A stretch of 61,299 nucleotides of DNA, taken from assembly GCA_029567375.1 (NCBI GenBank), contig JAKQLB010000168.1, forward strand, positions 1-61,299. Direction: 5' to 3'. Below, in pieces: positions 6,483-61,299 of this stretch. The notes below the pieces were generated by a model. It worked only from the letters and a program-made list of their open reading frames with translations, was not told where the DNA came from and made no database searches. The stretch comes from Bacteroidota bacterium (lineage in GTDB: Bacteria > Bacteroidota > Bacteroidia > Bacteroidales > UBA932). A program made the position numbers and the translations under genes. Every line of letters starts with the position of its first letter. The stretch's first letter is position 1.

Positions 6483-8528
6483 ATGGGAAGAAAGATCATA
6501 TTGTTTCTGGCACTGGTATTAAGCCTGTTTGCCTCCGGAGCCTCCTGCAATCCTTCCGTTAATCCCGATACGCAGGAATTCAAGGATGTAATGACATTCC
6601 CGCCCCAATGGGACGGGACAAAGAGGGGAGATATCACCTATCAATTGCTGGTTTACAGTTTTGCAGATTCCGACGGTGACGGATGGGGCGATTTCCGTGG
6701 AATAATTGACAAACTGGACTATATTCAGTCACTTGGGGCCTCTGCAATCTGGCTTTCGCCCATACATCCGAGTGCTTCTTATCATGGATATGATGTGGAA
6801 GATTATGGTATTATAAATCCGCGTTTCGGTACGATGGCCGACTTCAAACAATTGGTCAGCGAGGCCCACAAACGCAATATCCGCATTTATCTTGACTATG
6901 TGATCAACCATTCCGGAGTTAACCACCCCTGGTTCAAAACCGCCACATCATCGATGGAGAATCCATATAGGGAGTACTATATTTTCTCAGATGATCCGCA
7001 AAAGGATATAGCTGCCGGTAAAATACCGATGATTGGCACAGAAGGTGCCGGCGGATATGACGGTGGACAGTGGTTTCCTACGGGGACGATACCTTCCGGC
7101 ATTTATAAATTCACTCTTGACTGGAGCAACAGCAATGCTCCGACAGTGACGATATCCATTGGTGGCACCCCGGATCCCGACAACCCCGACCAATCTACCG
7201 AAGGGGCGAAATATCTCTATTATGGTGATGGTATTTGTAAGAAATTTTATTCTAAAGGCAACGGTGTTTACGAGTTAACGGTGGATTTCAACTCCGGTTG
7301 GGGTTTCCTTGTGAGGACATCAAACTCCTCATCCTGGCCACTCGGCACCAAATATGGTGCAAAGAAGGACGCATCTGCCCAGCTTGCGTTTGATGTGCCA
7401 TTTACTCTTTATACAGATAAGTCTAGCAACGACAATATACAGAATTTGACTCCTCCCGGAGCCAAGATGTATTACTATCACTCTCATTTTTGGACAGACT
7501 GGTTTGCGGATCTCAATTTTGGCCCGGTTGCAACAGCAGAACACTCCCCAGCATTCAAGGCCATCGTAGAGGATGCGCAGGTGTGGATAGATGCCGGCAT
7601 CGACGGTTTGCGTCTCGATGCAGTGAAGCATATCTACCACAATGAAAATTCAGACGAGAATCCTCAATTCCTCAAAAAATTCTACGATGCTGTCAATGCC
7701 CGTTTCAAGGCGAAAAACGGCAGGGATATTTATATGGTGGGAGAGGTCTTCTCCGATTGGGATAGGGTCGCACCCTATTACAAGGGGCTTCCGGCCCTCT
7801 TTGACTTTTCATTTTGGTGGCGCATGAGCGCTGCCATAAATCAAGGCCAAGGACTTGAATTTGCCGAAGGCACAATCAGCATCCACGAAGCTTACCGTAG
7901 CCATCACAATAACTTCATTGCAGCCACAAAACTCTCCAATCATGACGAAAATAGAGCTCGTAGCGAGCTGGGAGGCTCACTTACCAAAGCCAAATTGGCC
8001 GGAGCGATGTTGCTCTCTTCGCAGGGCTCACCTTACATCTATTATGGCGAGGAACTCGGTTATACCGGAACGAAAAGCGGTGGTGATGAATATATCCGCA
8101 CTCCGATGTACTGGGGCGACCGCTATGTCACCTCCTATACCGACAAGATAGATCCTGCAGTACAGACAACTGTAGGCAGTGTTGTGTCACAGGAGGCAGA
8201 TGCTTCTTCAATCCTGACGATGTATCGTCAATTGGGCAGACTCCGCAATTCCTGTCCGGCACTGGCTGCCGGGAAAATAGAGCTTCATCCTGTAATCAAT
8301 CCTCAGACCGGTGGTATTTACTCTCAAGTGGCCGCATGGTATATGATCGAAGGGAAACAAAAACTTCTCGTACTTCACAACCTCGGCCAGAGCGAGATGA
8401 CAATCTCCCTCAGTGACTCGCTCGAAAAACCTCTCTTTGTAAACGGACGGGTGCAGAGCAAAAAGGGAAAAGATCATTACCAGTTGAAGATGGAAGGATA
8501 TTCATCAGCAATTTTTAACTTTAAATAA
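6483..8528 (+). CDS. susG: SusG-like GH13 alpha-amylase lipoprotein with inserted CBM
   Basis: A 681-residue GH13 enzyme with a lipobox (SGASC, Cys22). The catalytic barrel begins near residue 50 (DITYQLLVYSFADSDGDGWG). The GH13 residues are present: nucleophile Asp379 in GLRLDAVKH, acid/base Glu421 in VGEVF, and Asp488 in SNHDENR. Between the domain B start (HPWF, near 157) and YYYHSHFW (near 330) lies an extra ~160-residue module containing WFPTGTIPSGIYKF and YYGDG motifs. This is the position of the CBM58 insertion in B. theta SusG (692 residues). Expected role: cell-surface cleavage of starch into oligosaccharides for SusC/D. First gene of the GH13 run, followed after six bases by the next. 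Confidence 0.9.
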   Translation: MGRKIILFLALVLSLFASGASCNPSVNPDTQEFKDVMTFPPQWDGTKRGDITYQLLVYSFADSDGDGWGDFRGIIDKLDYIQSLGASAIWLSPIHPSASYHGYDVEDYGIINPRFGTMADFKQLVSEAHKRNIRIYLDYVINHSGVNHPWFKTATSSMENPYREYYIFSDDPQKDIAAGKIPMIGTEGAGGYDGGQWFPTGTIPSGIYKFTLDWSNSNAPTVTISIGGTPDPDNPDQSTEGAKYLYYGDGICKKFYSKGNGVYELTVDFNSGWGFLVRTSNSSSWPLGTKYGAKKDASAQLAFDVPFTLYTDKSSNDNIQNLTPPGAKMYYYHSHFWTDWFADLNFGPVATAEHSPAFKAIVEDAQVWIDAGIDGLRLDAVKHIYHNENSDENPQFLKKFYDAVNARFKAKNGRDIYMVGEVFSDWDRVAPYYKGLPALFDFSFWWRMSAAINQGQGLEFAEGTISIHEAYRSHHNNFIAATKLSNHDENRARSELGGSLTKAKLAGAMLLSSQGSPYIYYGEELGYTGTKSGGDEYIRTPMYWGDRYVTSYTDKIDPAVQTTVGSVVSQEADASSILTMYRQLGRLRNSCPALAAGKIELHPVINPQTGGIYSQVAAWYMIEGKQKLLVLHNLGQSEMTISLSDSLEKPLFVNGRVQSKKGKDHYQLKMEGYSSAIFNFK

Positions 8529-57193: not shown

Positions 57194-57319
57194 GCAAATA
57201 AATGCAATATAACATTGGAATAAAATTCTAAAATTACTTACATATTTGCGTATTTACAACCCCTAACATATCAAATTCTCACAAAAACAGCTAGTTAGAC
57301 CTTTAAATCATTAGAGTGA

Positions 57320-57354
57320 GAAAATAAAAACTCCCCGAATTCTCGAGGAGTTTG
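57320..57354 (-). terminator. Terminator of the aldo-keto reductase gene
   Basis: Stem AAACTCC / GGAGTTT with additional CGA/TCG pairing inside. On the minus strand a TTTTTATTTT tract follows; on the plus strand TTTGTTTCT follows, so it may work both ways. Confidence 0.7.
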
Positions 57355-57393
57355 TTTCTAGAAGATTAGAATTCTAGATATATATTCCCAATC

Positions 57394-57460
57394 GTCATTT
57401 CTAACTCAAAATTTCAAACACGCAACTCGCACCGCGTAACACGCACCCCATACTCCAAAA
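57394..57460. repeat. Degenerate AACTCGCA/CGTAACACGC word run
   Basis: Imperfect short words (GCAACTCGCACCGCGTAACA and similar) just past the 3' end of the reductase gene, of the same style as runs at 15171-15228, 49650-49702, 60413-60480 and 61020-61085. Confidence 0.45.
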
Positions 57461-57461
57461 C

Positions 57462-58601
57462 TCATCCTTCCCGCATTTTGCGGGCAGCTATTTCTCTCTG
57501 GCGACAAATTTCTTTCCAGGAAGGAGCTTTGACAAGTTGCGAGTTGAGTTCGCTGATTACTTCAGGAATGTCAATGCCTTGAGGGCACATTTGACTGCAT
57601 GCACCGCATCCTATGCAGTTTGAAGGGTGACCTTCTTTAGGAAGCGATTCGATGCGCATAAGAGGAGTGAAGGTGGTCTCGACGGCGAAATCGTTGCGTG
57701 CCTGGATCAGAGTGGGGATATCCAGTCCCATAGGGCAGGCCGGAGTACAATAGTTGCAGGCTGTGCAGGGCACGGAGTCTTTCATTTGTTCAGCAAGAGC
57801 ATAGAGACGGTCGCACTCTTCTTGGCTGAGCGGTGTTATACGGTTGAATATCTCGATATTCTCTACCATCTGTTGTTCGTTTGACATACCACTGAGGATC
57901 ATAGTGACCCCGGGGATGCCGGCCACCCACCTGAAAGCCTCCTCAGGTGTGGCGATGGAGAGAAGCTTGCCGCCGCGTAATGGTTCCATCACCCAAATGG
58001 GAATATCTCTCGAATTGAGCAGTTCTACCTTTTCCCGCGCTCTCTGGAGTGACCAGTCTAGGAAATTGAGCTGTATCTGACAAAACTCCATATGCTCTCC
58101 ATAGGGAGAGTCGAGAAAACGCTTGAGTGTTTCAAGCTCCGCATGCGCTGAAAAACCGAGATGACGGATACGACCCATCTCCTTCTGCTTCAGGAAATAT
58201 TCCAGAATCCCCCACTTCGGGTCAAGATAGATATCTATACAGGTCTCATGTATATTATGCATAAGGTAGAAATCAAACCACTCCACCCCGCACTTACGCA
58301 ACTGGTCCTCAAATATTACTTCAGGATTGTATTCGGATGCTATCTGGTGGCCGGGATACTTATTAGCGATGTACCAGTTTTCGCGCGGGTGACGGCGCAA
58401 TGCCTCACCGGCAACAACCTCCGACAGACCTCCGTGATAGGGATACGCGGTATCAAAATAGTTGATTCCATGCTCAATTGCATAGTCTACCATACGGAAG
58501 GTGACCTCACTATCAATCTCACCATCAGGTGTCACAGGTAATCTCATCAGACCGAATCCCAGAAGGGAAAGCCGGAGTTCTTTGAAGTTGGAGTATTTCA
58601 T
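57462..58601 (-). CDS. Aldo-keto reductase with two [4Fe-4S] motifs
   Basis: A 379-residue oxidoreductase. The first ~270 residues are an aldo-keto reductase barrel with catalytic Asp50 and Tyr55 (FDTAYPYHGG), Lys81 (IANKYPG) and His115 (YLMHNIHE). The C-terminal ~100 residues carry two ferredoxin-type cluster sites, CTACNYCTPACP near 279 and CIGCGACSQMCP near 335. The combination suggests an enzyme linking NAD(P)H, ferredoxin-like clusters and a carbonyl substrate. The substrate is unknown. Monocistronic, with promoter and terminator. Confidence 0.9.
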   Translation of the reverse strand: MKYSNFKELRLSLLGFGLMRLPVTPDGEIDSEVTFRMVDYAIEHGINYFDTAYPYHGGLSEVVAGEALRRHPRENWYIANKYPGHQIASEYNPEVIFEDQLRKCGVEWFDFYLMHNIHETCIDIYLDPKWGILEYFLKQKEMGRIRHLGFSAHAELETLKRFLDSPYGEHMEFCQIQLNFLDWSLQRAREKVELLNSRDIPIWVMEPLRGGKLLSIATPEEAFRWVAGIPGVTMILSGMSNEQQMVENIEIFNRITPLSQEECDRLYALAEQMKDSVPCTACNYCTPACPMGLDIPTLIQARNDFAVETTFTPLMRIESLPKEGHPSNCIGCGACSQMCPQGIDIPEVISELNSQLVKAPSWKEICRQREIAARKMREG

Positions 58602-58626
58602 TGTCTCTTTTTTTCGATTATCCTTG

Positions 58627-58657
58627 TAAAGGTAGGTTTTTAAATCGAAAAATTCAA
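58627..58657 (-). promoter_or_regulatory. Promoter of the aldo-keto reductase
   Basis: On the minus strand TTG (58657-58655) and TACCTTTA (58634-58627) are 20 bases apart; the last base departs from TAnnTTTG. Confidence 0.4.
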
Positions 58658-58751
58658 CAAATGACTAACACTATGACAGCCTTTAGAACACTACAAATCT
58701 CCAATATCAATCATCGCGCAATACTTAATTGTTATTTTATGGTATAAAAGA

Positions 58752-58786
58752 TAAAAAAGGGTTGGGACTTTGTTGTGTCCCAACCC
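58752..58786 (-). terminator. Terminator of the FISUMP-tail lipoprotein gene
   Basis: Perfect 10-bp stem GGGTTGGGAC / GTCCCAACCC with an 8-base loop; on the minus strand it is followed by TTTTTTATC. About 100 bases past the stop. Confidence 0.9.
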
Positions 58787-58884
58787 AAGGTTTATGCAGT
58801 GATAGTCAGACAATAGGCCTGATTAATCAGCCGAAGGCATAACCCCATGCCTCTTAAAGGCGGCCGGGGTAATCAATCCGACTA

Positions 58885-60393
58885 TTACCGGGACACCAAG
58901 CGAACGGAGTGCCTTCTGGTGCTGTTGTAGCTGACGCTGTACGCGTAGTTGCCGTTGAAGAACATGTTCCACACGTTGCTGCCGCTGTCCACCGTGGACG
59001 ACCAGTAGTCGCTCCACTCGCCTTGGTGGATGGGCGTGCCCGTGGAAGTCCTATACCCCGCCGCCGGGAACACGCGCGAAACCACGGCAACGCTATTCCA
59101 ATCGGCATCTTTTGCCTGTTGAATCGTGTATTGTGTGGCGGTTTTCTTCATATCGACTACCATTCGGGCATTCGGGTTACCGGCAACCAGGTTCTCCTTC
59201 CGGAAACGAACTATCGCGTATAATGTCGGGTTGGATTGGTGCGTGTAGGTTAACGTGGCGTAAACCACACTGCCAATATTCTCAAAAGTACCGTTCATGG
59301 TATAACTTTCACCGCCAACAGTTACAGCTGCGTTACTGAGTGTACGAGTACTCCAAGTGTTGTTGAAATTAATATAAGTGTTCGATTCCGGGATAATGGC
59401 TCGCCACTCTTGAATAGTGGGCAGGTAGTAATCCTTGCCGCCAAGCGTGGCCGGGGTGGTGTTGTATGCTGTCATGGCATCATTCCAATCAAAGAGATAC
59501 TCCCCTGTGGCGTCGTGATCTGCCTCGAAGGTGCCGGTGAGGTTTGCCATGTTGTGCTCGGCAAAGTAGCTGAGCGGGTTGATCCAGTCGATCGCCGGAC
59601 TCCAGTTGTTTATAGCACCTTTGTAGCGGTCTCCTGCTGCATAGTTCTTTTCAGTTGTAACTGTGTTGCTTTGGAAAGACAATTGCTCTCCGTACAGTGC
59701 TACCATATATTTTCCACCTGCGATTATCTTCATCGCTGCAGGGTCAAAAGAGAGGTAAGCGGTAAGACTACTGTTAGTTGCTGAGAAGGTTACTCCGGTT
59801 ACGTGAAGAGTCATCGATTTAAAGACCCCCGTTGCCGTCTCTTCCGTCCAGTCAATGTGACTGAGCGTCCCTACTTCTTGCGGCACGTTGGTGAGATCAA
59901 ATCTGATGATGCTGCTTTTCAAGACCAGGGAAAAGGTTTGATTGAGAGGGTTGGCCGTTTCGTCGTACAATAGCAGCTTTTTGCTGAGATGTGCCGTTGT
60001 ACCATTTCCGCTTTGTGTCTGCTGCCAGAAGTTATCGGCAAGTTGCACATTTCCGTTATTATCCAGCACGATGGCCTCTGCCGGATAGTAGGCCTTGTAG
60101 ATGTCGGCACCCTTTACCTCTGTTCCTCTAAAATTATTGCCTCCGTCGTATTCGAAAGGAGCACAATCTATATAGGTTCCACCTGCGTCATATCCTGCCA
60201 GCAGTAGTTTGTCACCGGACTCCCATGCGAGTTTGCGTGTGCCGTCGTTGTATGATACGCGTGTATCCGGTGATATATTGGCGCTTATGGTCACGATCTT
60301 TCCCACTTCCTTCTCAGGTTCGGGAATAGGTTCAAGCGTACAGCCCGCCACCATTATGGCAAGCAGTGTAATAATAAATAGTTTTAACTTCAT
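58885..60393 (-). CDS. Fimbrillin-like lipoprotein with C-type-lectin/FISUMP tail; candidate DGR target
   Basis: A 502-residue lipoprotein (lipobox MVAGC, Cys18). Residues about 30-260 have the fimbrillin-like opening VGKIVTISANISPDTRVSYND and beta strands, as in Bacteroidales pilin-like or surface proteins. Residues about 310-502 resemble FISUMP domains: KDYYLPTIQEWRAIIPES, then GYRTSTGTPIHQGEWSDYWSST and a close RRHSVRLVSR. In the last 43 codons, 41 end in G or C, and nearly all Ser, Asp, Asn, Tyr and Phe codons are NNC, whereas upstream codons mix A/T and G/C endings. The shift begins near 59085. It follows a small protein gene on the same strand. Confidence 0.8.
   Translation of the reverse strand: MKLKLFIITLLAIMVAGCTLEPIPEPEKEVGKIVTISANISPDTRVSYNDGTRKLAWESGDKLLLAGYDAGGTYIDCAPFEYDGGNNFRGTEVKGADIYKAYYPAEAIVLDNNGNVQLADNFWQQTQSGNGTTAHLSKKLLLYDETANPLNQTFSLVLKSSIIRFDLTNVPQEVGTLSHIDWTEETATGVFKSMTLHVTGVTFSATNSSLTAYLSFDPAAMKIIAGGKYMVALYGEQLSFQSNTVTTEKNYAAGDRYKGAINNWSPAIDWINPLSYFAEHNMANLTGTFEADHDATGEYLFDWNDAMTAYNTTPATLGGKDYYLPTIQEWRAIIPESNTYINFNNTWSTRTLSNAAVTVGGESYTMNGTFENIGSVVYATLTYTHQSNPTLYAIVRFRKENLVAGNPNARMVVDMKKTATQYTIQQAKDADWNSVAVVSRVFPAAGYRTSTGTPIHQGEWSDYWSSTVDSGSNVWNMFFNGNYAYSVSYNSTRRHSVRLVSR
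58888..59016 (-). other. Candidate variable region (GC-rich NNC codon cassette)
   Basis: The final 43 codons encode a WSDYWSST-to-RLVSR lectin-like end. Codons at the exposed-looking positions are AGC, GAC, TAC, TTC, AAC, ACC and CAC, all reachable from AAC by changing only its two adenines. That is the footprint of adenine-directed mutagenesis by a diversity-generating retroelement, though horizontal import of a GC-rich cassette would also explain the codon shift. Confidence 0.45.
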
Positions 60394-60412
60394 AGTTATG
60401 TGTTTTGTTTTT

Positions 60413-60480
60413 TAATTGCTAATTGTTAATGGTTAATTGCCAAAAACTAACGGCCAATTGTCAACAGCTAATAACTAACA
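60413..60480. repeat. Degenerate TTAATTG/CTAACGGCC word run
   Basis: Imperfect short words (AATTGCTAATTGTTAATGGTTAATTGCC and so on, broken here for length) between the small protein gene and the lipoprotein gene, resembling the other intergenic runs in this window. Confidence 0.5.
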
Positions 60481-60483
60481 AAC

Positions 60484-60621
60484 CTACCAGGCATCTCCTC
60501 CGTCTCCAACGTCAGGCAGACTTGCCGTGAGGATATTTTGGGTAAGTTCAATTTCAATGACTTCGATATCGGGCGCGATATACACTCTCGTTGCCAAATC
60601 AATGTTGACTTCTTTTTTCAT
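60484..60621 (-). CDS. Small acidic protein, 45 residues
   Basis: An intact 45-codon frame: MKKEVNIDLATRVYIAPDIE at the start, then VIEIELTQNILTASL and an acidic Gly-Asp end (GDGGDAW). I recognise the general style (YxxPxxExxxIxxxxxIL then an acidic Gly-rich tail) from small proteins next to fimbrillin-like lipoproteins in Bacteroidales, but know no established function or family name. No signal peptide. It lies 90 bases before the FISUMP-tail lipoprotein on the same strand and is probably co-transcribed. Codon use and frame length favour a real gene; a leader-peptide role is an alternative. Confidence 0.65.
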   Translation of the reverse strand: MKKEVNIDLATRVYIAPDIEVIEIELTQNILTASLPDVGDGGDAW

Positions 60622-60735
60622 AATTTGTAGGGTTTAAAATGATTGTCTGTTTTTTTATTGTTTTCGTAAGAAGAGCTTACAGAGTCACTTCGCAGCAAAG
60701 CCGATTATTGCAGCAAAACGATTCGGTTATTACGG

Positions 60736-60774
60736 AAAAAAGAAACTTCCTGTTGGCTCCGACGGGGCCAACAG
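60736..60774 (-). terminator. Candidate attenuator upstream of the small protein gene
   Basis: CTGTTGGC / GCCAACAG stem, closed inside by CC/GG, followed on the minus strand by GAAGTTTCTTTTTT. It sits in the presumed leader of the small protein-lipoprotein unit, about 115 bases before the small gene, with no minus-strand gene upstream of it to end. Confidence 0.5.
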
Positions 60775-61019
60775 AACTTGGAGATCGGATAGGGTGTAAG
60801 TGCCGTTATACGTGCACGGATGGGGATGGTAAATATCTCTATATCAGCAAGATAGAGTGAATATGCGGACAATTGCCCGCATTGACATAATGCAGTATTA
60901 AGTTGTAGCGCACTCATGGATAAAGTTCCCCGTTTATCTATCTGAGTATTTAGGGGTAAAATTAAATAGAAAAAATAAAACGACAAAATACCAAAGTAAA
61001 ACAATCAAATAGTTTCCAG

Positions 61020-61085
61020 CCATCGACTCCTAACCCATCCGGCCTCCAAGTCCTAACCCAGAAATCTAACTCATAACTCGGCACT
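61020..61085. repeat. Degenerate CCTAACCC/CTAACTCATAACTCGG word run
   Basis: Short imperfect words (CTCCTAACCCATCCGGCCTC, AAGTCCTAACCCAG, CTAACTCATAACTCGG) upstream of the HerA-like gene, of the same style as the other runs listed. Confidence 0.45.
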
Positions 61086-61102
61086 TATAACTAAAAAATT
61101 CT

Positions 61103-61110
61103 TACCTTTG
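61103..61110 (+). promoter_or_regulatory. Candidate -7 box of the HerA-like ATPase gene
   Basis: TACCTTTG, 28 bases before the ATG at 61139. No clear -33 partner. Confidence 0.4.
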
Positions 61111-61138
61111 AAAATTAACCGGAAAAAACCAAATCATT

Positions 61139-61299
61139 ATGTATAAAGACGATAAATTGTATGTAGCCCATTCGGCCAACGGCCCGATATATCTTCAGGG
61201 TAAGATGGCAAACAGGCACGGACTGATAGCCGGTGCCACAGGTACGGGAAAAACCGTCTCCCTGCAGGTGCTGGCGGAGACATTTTCCCAGGCGGGAGT
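61139..61299 (+). CDS. HerA/DUF853-like ATPase, N-terminal part
   Basis: Only the first 53 codons are in the window; the gene runs off the right edge. The sequence starts MYKDDKLYVAHSANGPIYLQ and then HGLIAGATGTGKTVSLQVL, a Walker A P-loop placed very close to the N-terminus as in YjgR/DUF853 proteins of the HerA-FtsK ATPase superfamily. These are annotated as putative helicases; their physiological role is poorly known. Confidence 0.8.
   Translation, partial: MYKDDKLYVAHSANGPIYLQGKMANRHGLIAGATGTGKTVSLQVLAETFSQAG

Follow-up and report, generated by a model that had tools for sequence, protein, structure and literature searches.

A lipoprotein gene family with a retroelement-type variable tail in Bacteroidales draft genomes

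The 3′ end of a 502-amino-acid lipoprotein gene, located in a 61,299-nucleotide stretch of Bacteroidales DNA (the window), carries a well supported footprint of a diversity-generating retroelement (DGR). We read this tail as an orphan DGR variable region that is now exchanged, at least in part, by recombination, and assign this reading a probability of about 0.56. It is highly probable that DGR mutagenesis shaped the tail. On balance, the footprint appears to persist although no DGR now resides in the genome, and recombination appears to be the route in use.

The lipoprotein and its relatives

The gene is on the minus strand. Its parts are as follows.

58885..60393, minus strand: lipoprotein gene, 502 aa, with signal and lipobox MKLKLFIITLLAIMVAGC, the lipobox being read from the sequence
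59611..60297, minus strand: N-terminal beta-rich region, residues 33-261, range taken from predicted strands
58888..59583, minus strand: C-terminal domain, residues 271-502, weakly similar to Lcl_C and FISUMP
59056..59088, minus strand: conserved 5′ tail framework, codons 436-446, from a DNA alignment of 11 tails
58906..59055, minus strand: hypervariable region, codons 447-496, in which G/C-ending codons predominate and most variable sites are NNC
58909..58992, minus strand: variable-region core, codons 468-495, where AAN codons of real DGR templates line up with the variable columns
58888..58908, minus strand: conserved 3′ framework SVRLVSR, from the same alignment of 11 tails

The protein has an adhesin-like N-terminal half followed by a weakly FISUMP-like C-terminal domain. 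The AlphaFold model has a mean pLDDT of 78.3 and a pTM of 0.58. At E≤0.001, FimA/Mfa-type adhesion proteins of Bacteroides make up seven of the eight Foldseek matches, which fall in the N-terminal half (best match 3t2l, E 1e-6), although TM scores normalised by target are a modest 0.31–0.48. A Pfam search of the lipoprotein gave no fimbrillin match. As modelled, the N-terminus appears to resemble FimA/Mfa-type (type V) Bacteroides adhesins.

The Lcl_C and FISUMP similarities of the C-terminal domain are sub-threshold; the window protein scores 18.9 bits against FISUMP (TIGR02145), under the curated cut-off of 41.65. FISUMP was matched at E≤0.01 by 9/14 aligned members, the window protein included, with a best E of 4.9e-7. 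The model of this domain has a pLDDT of 84.5 and a pTM of 0.85, and its best match in BFVD (62 aligned columns, rmsd 1.4, E 0.018) is to a FISUMP protein. This likeness to FISUMP makes a C-type lectin fold plausible, although a PDB structure search with the domain model for such a domain returned nothing at E≤0.001. No Rfam match was found in positions 57300–61299, and a literature search found no paper on this gene family.

A 45-aa open reading frame (MKKEVNID...LPDVGDGGDAW; 60484–60621, minus strand) lies directly upstream of the lipoprotein gene. Similar short reading frames ending DGG.AW were seen in 6/12 relative loci scanned (L025, L035, L041, where there are two, L006, L027 and L028). 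The 45-aa product is a putative small companion peptide.

The genome containing the window (G000) is a draft of 3.38 Mb in 400 contigs, 88.95% complete with 2.97% contamination. It contains 13 matches to the lipoprotein. The SVRLVSR tail type occurs on one other contig, C153, and the other tails read end in VRLF. Some match to the lipoprotein was found in 11/40 genomes of the genus, this one included, and the SVRLVSR type in five: G000, G008, G011, G013 and G027. These carriers are draft metagenome-assembled genomes (MAGs), 51–90% complete, two of the five being at 90%. A tail profile gave 12 strong matches in the 40 genus genomes, every one at the 3′ end of a family gene; at E≤1, profile R1 had a match in 36/40, most of them weak. 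Profile searches of 398 family and 393 order genomes added no further member of the strong subgroup, the best score outside the carriers being 58 bits (G615) versus 127–156 bits inside. A scan of genome_contigs recovered four tails from two MAGs, UBA1392 (G008) and Go_SlDig_bin_255 (G027).

Several of the relatives have unusual features. G008 has four SVRLVSR-type genes, one with an in-frame stop and one split, whose tails nevertheless stay open (L036, L047); these broken genes could be pseudogenes or assembly errors. An identical stretch of 2225 bp occurs in two species bins, G013 C2 (L028) and G011 C35 (L037), and may reflect recent transfer or a misbinned contig. G011 C35, identical to G013 C2 over the gene, was omitted from the alignment. 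Similarly, G027b (L035), a near-copy of G008a, was omitted from the variable-column counts and the template-register test. In another family, G615 C25 (L148, L155) has three related tails within 2.5 kb, and the loci fetched from that contig contain no A-biased repeat pair.

Codon signature and template register

An earlier note on this DNA had counted 41 G/C-ending codons among the last 43 of the gene, with mixed codons just upstream. The count is correct for codons 460–502, where AGA 493 and GTT 497 are the only exceptions. The gene average is 58%, and the best 43-codon stretch away from the tail, sampled every 10 codons, has 33. Endings are mixed at codons 428–435, but the G/C-ending stretch starts earlier than the note had placed it, near codon 436 (61/67 among codons 436–502). 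Because the measured relatives of the same subgroup share a high tail GC3 (0.73–0.93 versus 0.49–0.55 in the body) and sister paralogues ending ...VRLF do not (0.35–0.59), the bias exceeds chance.

C is the third base of 189/265 codons at variable columns, versus 1186/3819 in the body. Amino acids that NNC cannot encode (K, E, Q, M, W) account for 24/265 codons at variable columns versus 589/3819 in the body. Within the same tails, third-base C:G is 189:31 at variable columns versus 109:76 at conserved columns (p 1e-9); therefore the variable sites are biased to NNC more than a general preference for GC would make them. A tail with no DGR history, that is, a foreign GC-rich cassette spread and varied by recombination only, would account for a GC-rich tail within a gene of otherwise average GC and for the one tail that is common to two genes of different species (see below). 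A GC preference should raise NNG as well, however, which the C:G counts contradict, and the variable sites match the AAN codons of real templates. We regard a foreign cassette as improbable.

The window gene (contig C142) was compared with its positional counterpart in a sister species, G011 C109. Both flanks align, with a single 54-base gap just after the stop codon. Nucleotide identity is 0.944 in the body and 0.718 in the tail, so the hypervariability that the earlier note had expected of this tail is seen between positional counterparts. For two pairs of sister paralogues in these genomes, the tails are at least as conserved as the bodies. Differences between C142 and C109 at codon positions 1/2/3 number 16/20/39 in the body and 19/21/10 in the tail (Fisher p 3.6e-4). 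There are also in-frame indels between the two tails.

The same signature was observed across the family. Across 27 variable columns of 10 tails, codon positions 1/2/3 differ between pairs at rates of 0.649/0.635/0.317. For the 17 columns of the core the rates are 0.636/0.632/0.242, and the third base is C in 135/168. Sister tails, which form the same kind of domain end with ordinary GC and also vary in amino acids, served as a control; 9 tails with 29 variable columns gave flat rates of 0.679/0.651/0.654, with C as the third base in 99/257. Variation in the SVRLVSR-type tails is thus concentrated at the positions fed by template adenines (NNC/NNY), and the proposal that the NNC codons are a DGR-type footprint is upheld by these rates and by the flat control.

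Could ordinary diversifying selection on surface loops, combined with local codon bias, produce this pattern? The tail does end a surface-type protein, and the sister tails vary in amino acids as well. Yet the sister tails vary equally at all codon positions, and position-3 differences between C142 and G011 C109 fall from 39/75 in the body to 10/50 in the tail. Selection of this kind is the least probable of the explanations considered and a very doubtful one.

Real DGRs were found in related genomes. Twelve genus genomes have a reverse transcriptase (RT) match, and two of them, G003 and G035, have DGRs with targets ending YYWS...SVRLV, the same tail. DGR template pairs of this kind were also found in G154, which belongs to a different genus in the family, and in G758, which belongs to a different family in the order. 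Because mismatches fall almost entirely at template A (15/15 in G154, 22/23 in G003, 20/20 in G035), the G154, G003 and G035 DGRs are genuine. AAN codons of these three templates lie on the hypervariable columns of the lipoprotein family, with one-sided p of 2e-5 (G154), 3e-4 (G003) and 1e-4 (G035). These values are not independent, as the three templates share homology; in addition, the profile that detected G154 had been built from these tails. The third base is C in 111/127 codons at G154's AAN columns versus 103/228 elsewhere, and the G154 template YWSSTENDTNNAYYMNFNTSNANTNNTNKNNGFQVRCV aligns without gaps to YWSSTVDSGSNVWNMFFNGNYAYSVSYNSTRRHSVRLV of the window over 38 codons. The variable sites therefore coincide with AAN codons of three homologous templates, and the suspected kinship with DGR targets is supported, the tail being homologous to, and in register with, real DGR templates of the same genus and family.

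Because G154 tails on two other contigs differ from the template mainly at A (13/16 and 18/19 mismatches), remote targeting appears to occur in this family. Other template pairs were noted nearby. G025 C10 (L065, L139) has a template/variable-region pair beside an RT with nearly A-only mismatches and a different target sequence. G758 C8 (L156) has template NYWSSTANDNNANYLNFNSDNANMNNNNRNNGQSVRLV, a variable region lying roughly 1 kb from it and A-only mismatches in the stretch tested, and G758 C5 (L149), a contig separate from the template, has a further tail.

Search for a cognate retroelement and evidence for exchange

The earlier note had placed the template and RT outside the window. Neither a near-copy of template type nor a matching RT was found in the genome containing the window or in the other carriers, all of which are incomplete drafts. 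Searches of the own draft by BLASTN, pattern and profile yielded no cognate repeat mismatching mainly at A. With BLASTN, C153 was the sole match to the tail besides the tail itself. A YWSST-type pattern with at most two mismatches occurred at 9 places versus 6 for the reversed pattern, and 6/9 are in family genes; the other three (L081–L083) have nothing tail-like and were rejected as templates. Adenine-compatibility scans against the window tail covered fetched loci, those of the remaining order-level profile matches included; the best template elsewhere was that of G758, incompatible at 26/114 positions, followed by that of G154 at 29, versus 38–42 for the shuffled window. G758 (L156) was accordingly rejected as the cognate template. 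No single template fits the family, as tail length is not constant and, near codons 492–495, the window tail does not follow the pattern of the family.

An RT profile detected only one DGR RT in the five carriers, of phage type and in the genome containing the window. The G003 RT and accessory proteins, used as queries in the five carriers, detected nothing beyond it; as a control, they recover their G035 counterparts. The phage-type DGR (L004 5493–8690, G000 C99) has an Mtd-like target, an Avd, a template near 7009–7120 and an RT, with 12/14 template mismatches at A. Its template encodes GGNWSNGANAGSRTVNLNNYPWNVNTNIGSRFACE, unlike the window tail, and its RT was rejected as the cognate RT. 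The tail profile, which recovers templates or variable regions of G003, G035 and G154, found no comparably strong tail outside family genes in the five carriers. A scan of viral_contigs gave 0 tails, a tail-alignment scan of viral contigs with one peptide pattern gave no relative, and tblastn of the protein against plasmid and phage records gave no match. Thus the machinery is undetectable in the assembled DNA of the 89%-complete own draft and of four other carriers, and these searches could have overlooked a DGR borne by a plasmid or phage outside the bins.

An active DGR may still rewrite the tail in trans, from an RT and template that lie in the ~11% of the genome not recovered or on a plasmid, phage or ICE that was left unassembled or unbinned. 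The strong NNC footprint, the change in the tail after two closely related species split, the off-contig tails of G154 and the presence of a phage-type DGR in the bin itself all fit this explanation. It is weakened by five carriers, two at 90% completeness, that lack a cognate RT, a G003-type accessory gene and a template-like tail, by a protein with no match in phage or plasmid records and two empty viral-contig scans, and by the in-frame tail indels between C142 and G011, which are not expected of mutagenesis from one template. We consider rewriting in trans unlikely, though less so than either explanation that dispenses with a DGR.

Direct evidence for exchange comes from G008 C31 and G027 C54 (22218–23711). 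The first ~830 bases of the two genes are 67% identical (535/801) and the next 540 bases 86% (464/540). The tails are 94% identical (153/162), while the other 54 tail pairs are 54–77% identical. The 3′ flanks are unrelated. Because most variable codons are the same in both, the shared tail is a copy of a finished tail and not the product of independent mutagenesis. What was copied is not necessarily the tail alone and may extend in patches into the domain upstream of it (86%). Read by eye, the 3′ flanks of G027 C54 and the window gene are similar, which suggests that G027 C54 is the positional counterpart of the window gene.

The earlier note had offered a recombined GC-rich cassette as its second choice. 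Exchange was found in this one pair of relatives, the only clear cassette-sharing pair, but not for the window's own tail, of which no near-copy was found in the own genome (BLASTN) or among the relatives compared. Homogenisation of the framework anchors is unsupported, as use of the same codon at synonymous sites is 0.78 and 0.69 in the anchors versus 0.85 in the 120 codons upstream.

The proposed orphan variable region and known systems

For the orphan region that we favour, the following course is proposed. AAC-rich templates would have undergone adenine-directed mutagenesis, giving the NNC codons of the tail, a historical step that is well supported. The DGR machinery was not detected in the assembled DNA of the present genome or of the other carriers. 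Ordinary recombination would now carry diversified tails from gene to gene and from species to species in the form of short 3′ cassettes, a process that one pair illustrates and that may be the general rule. The variable residues would form the ligand-contacting face of a cell-surface lectin-like domain. A fuller two-stage system, in which a DGR wrote a tail library, the RT was lost and paralogues and species now trade finished tails as modular 3′ cassettes, is offered tentatively.

The tail is like the YYWS...SVR DGR regions of Bacteroidales (G003, G035, G154) in its position at the 3′ gene end, its NNC variable codons and its AAN columns. It is unlike the G003, G035, G154 and G758 DGRs in that the drafts of its carriers show no detectable template, accessory gene or matching RT. 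In pilE/pilS and vlsE, antigenic variation from silent cassettes replaces a short 3′ segment inside a more conserved surface gene. The window family works in a similar way, with 3′ segment replacement within a conserved surface gene, but no silent tail-only donor was found, 12/12 strong genus matches being 3′ ends of family genes.

Cyanobacterial DGRs have remote variable proteins, defined (PMC7517822) by likeness to a DGR target in the same organism. The lipoprotein family is similar to these in that genes with C-terminal variable domains are dispersed away from an RT, but those organisms still have a DGR, while a matching one was not detected in the carriers here. RT-less DGR fragments in Nanoarchaeota are described in PMC4372165 as fossils or as remotely diversified. 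These resemble the window tail in having an adenine-directed footprint at RT-less sites; the Nanoarchaeota genomes hold other DGRs, and here a finished tail is also common to genes of two species. DGRs diversify Bacteroides type V tip pilins, according to a J Bacteriol 2025 review (PMC12632263), which cites Macadangdang et al. 2024. RT-less variable regions (PMC4372165), remote variable proteins (PMC7517822) and DGR-varied Bacteroides tip pilins (PMC12632263) are already known. What is new here is a footprint-bearing family in drafts without a detectable matching DGR, together with one case of inter-species sharing of a finished tail.

The survey PMC8144416 states that remote targets would go undetected by its own approach. 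The codon-position test finds orphan variable regions without any RT. If there is truly no machine, gene families of this kind would escape RT-based DGR surveys, and DGR-made diversity would outlive its source as recombining cassettes. If the DGR instead resides on an unbinned element, the locus predicts what its template should look like.
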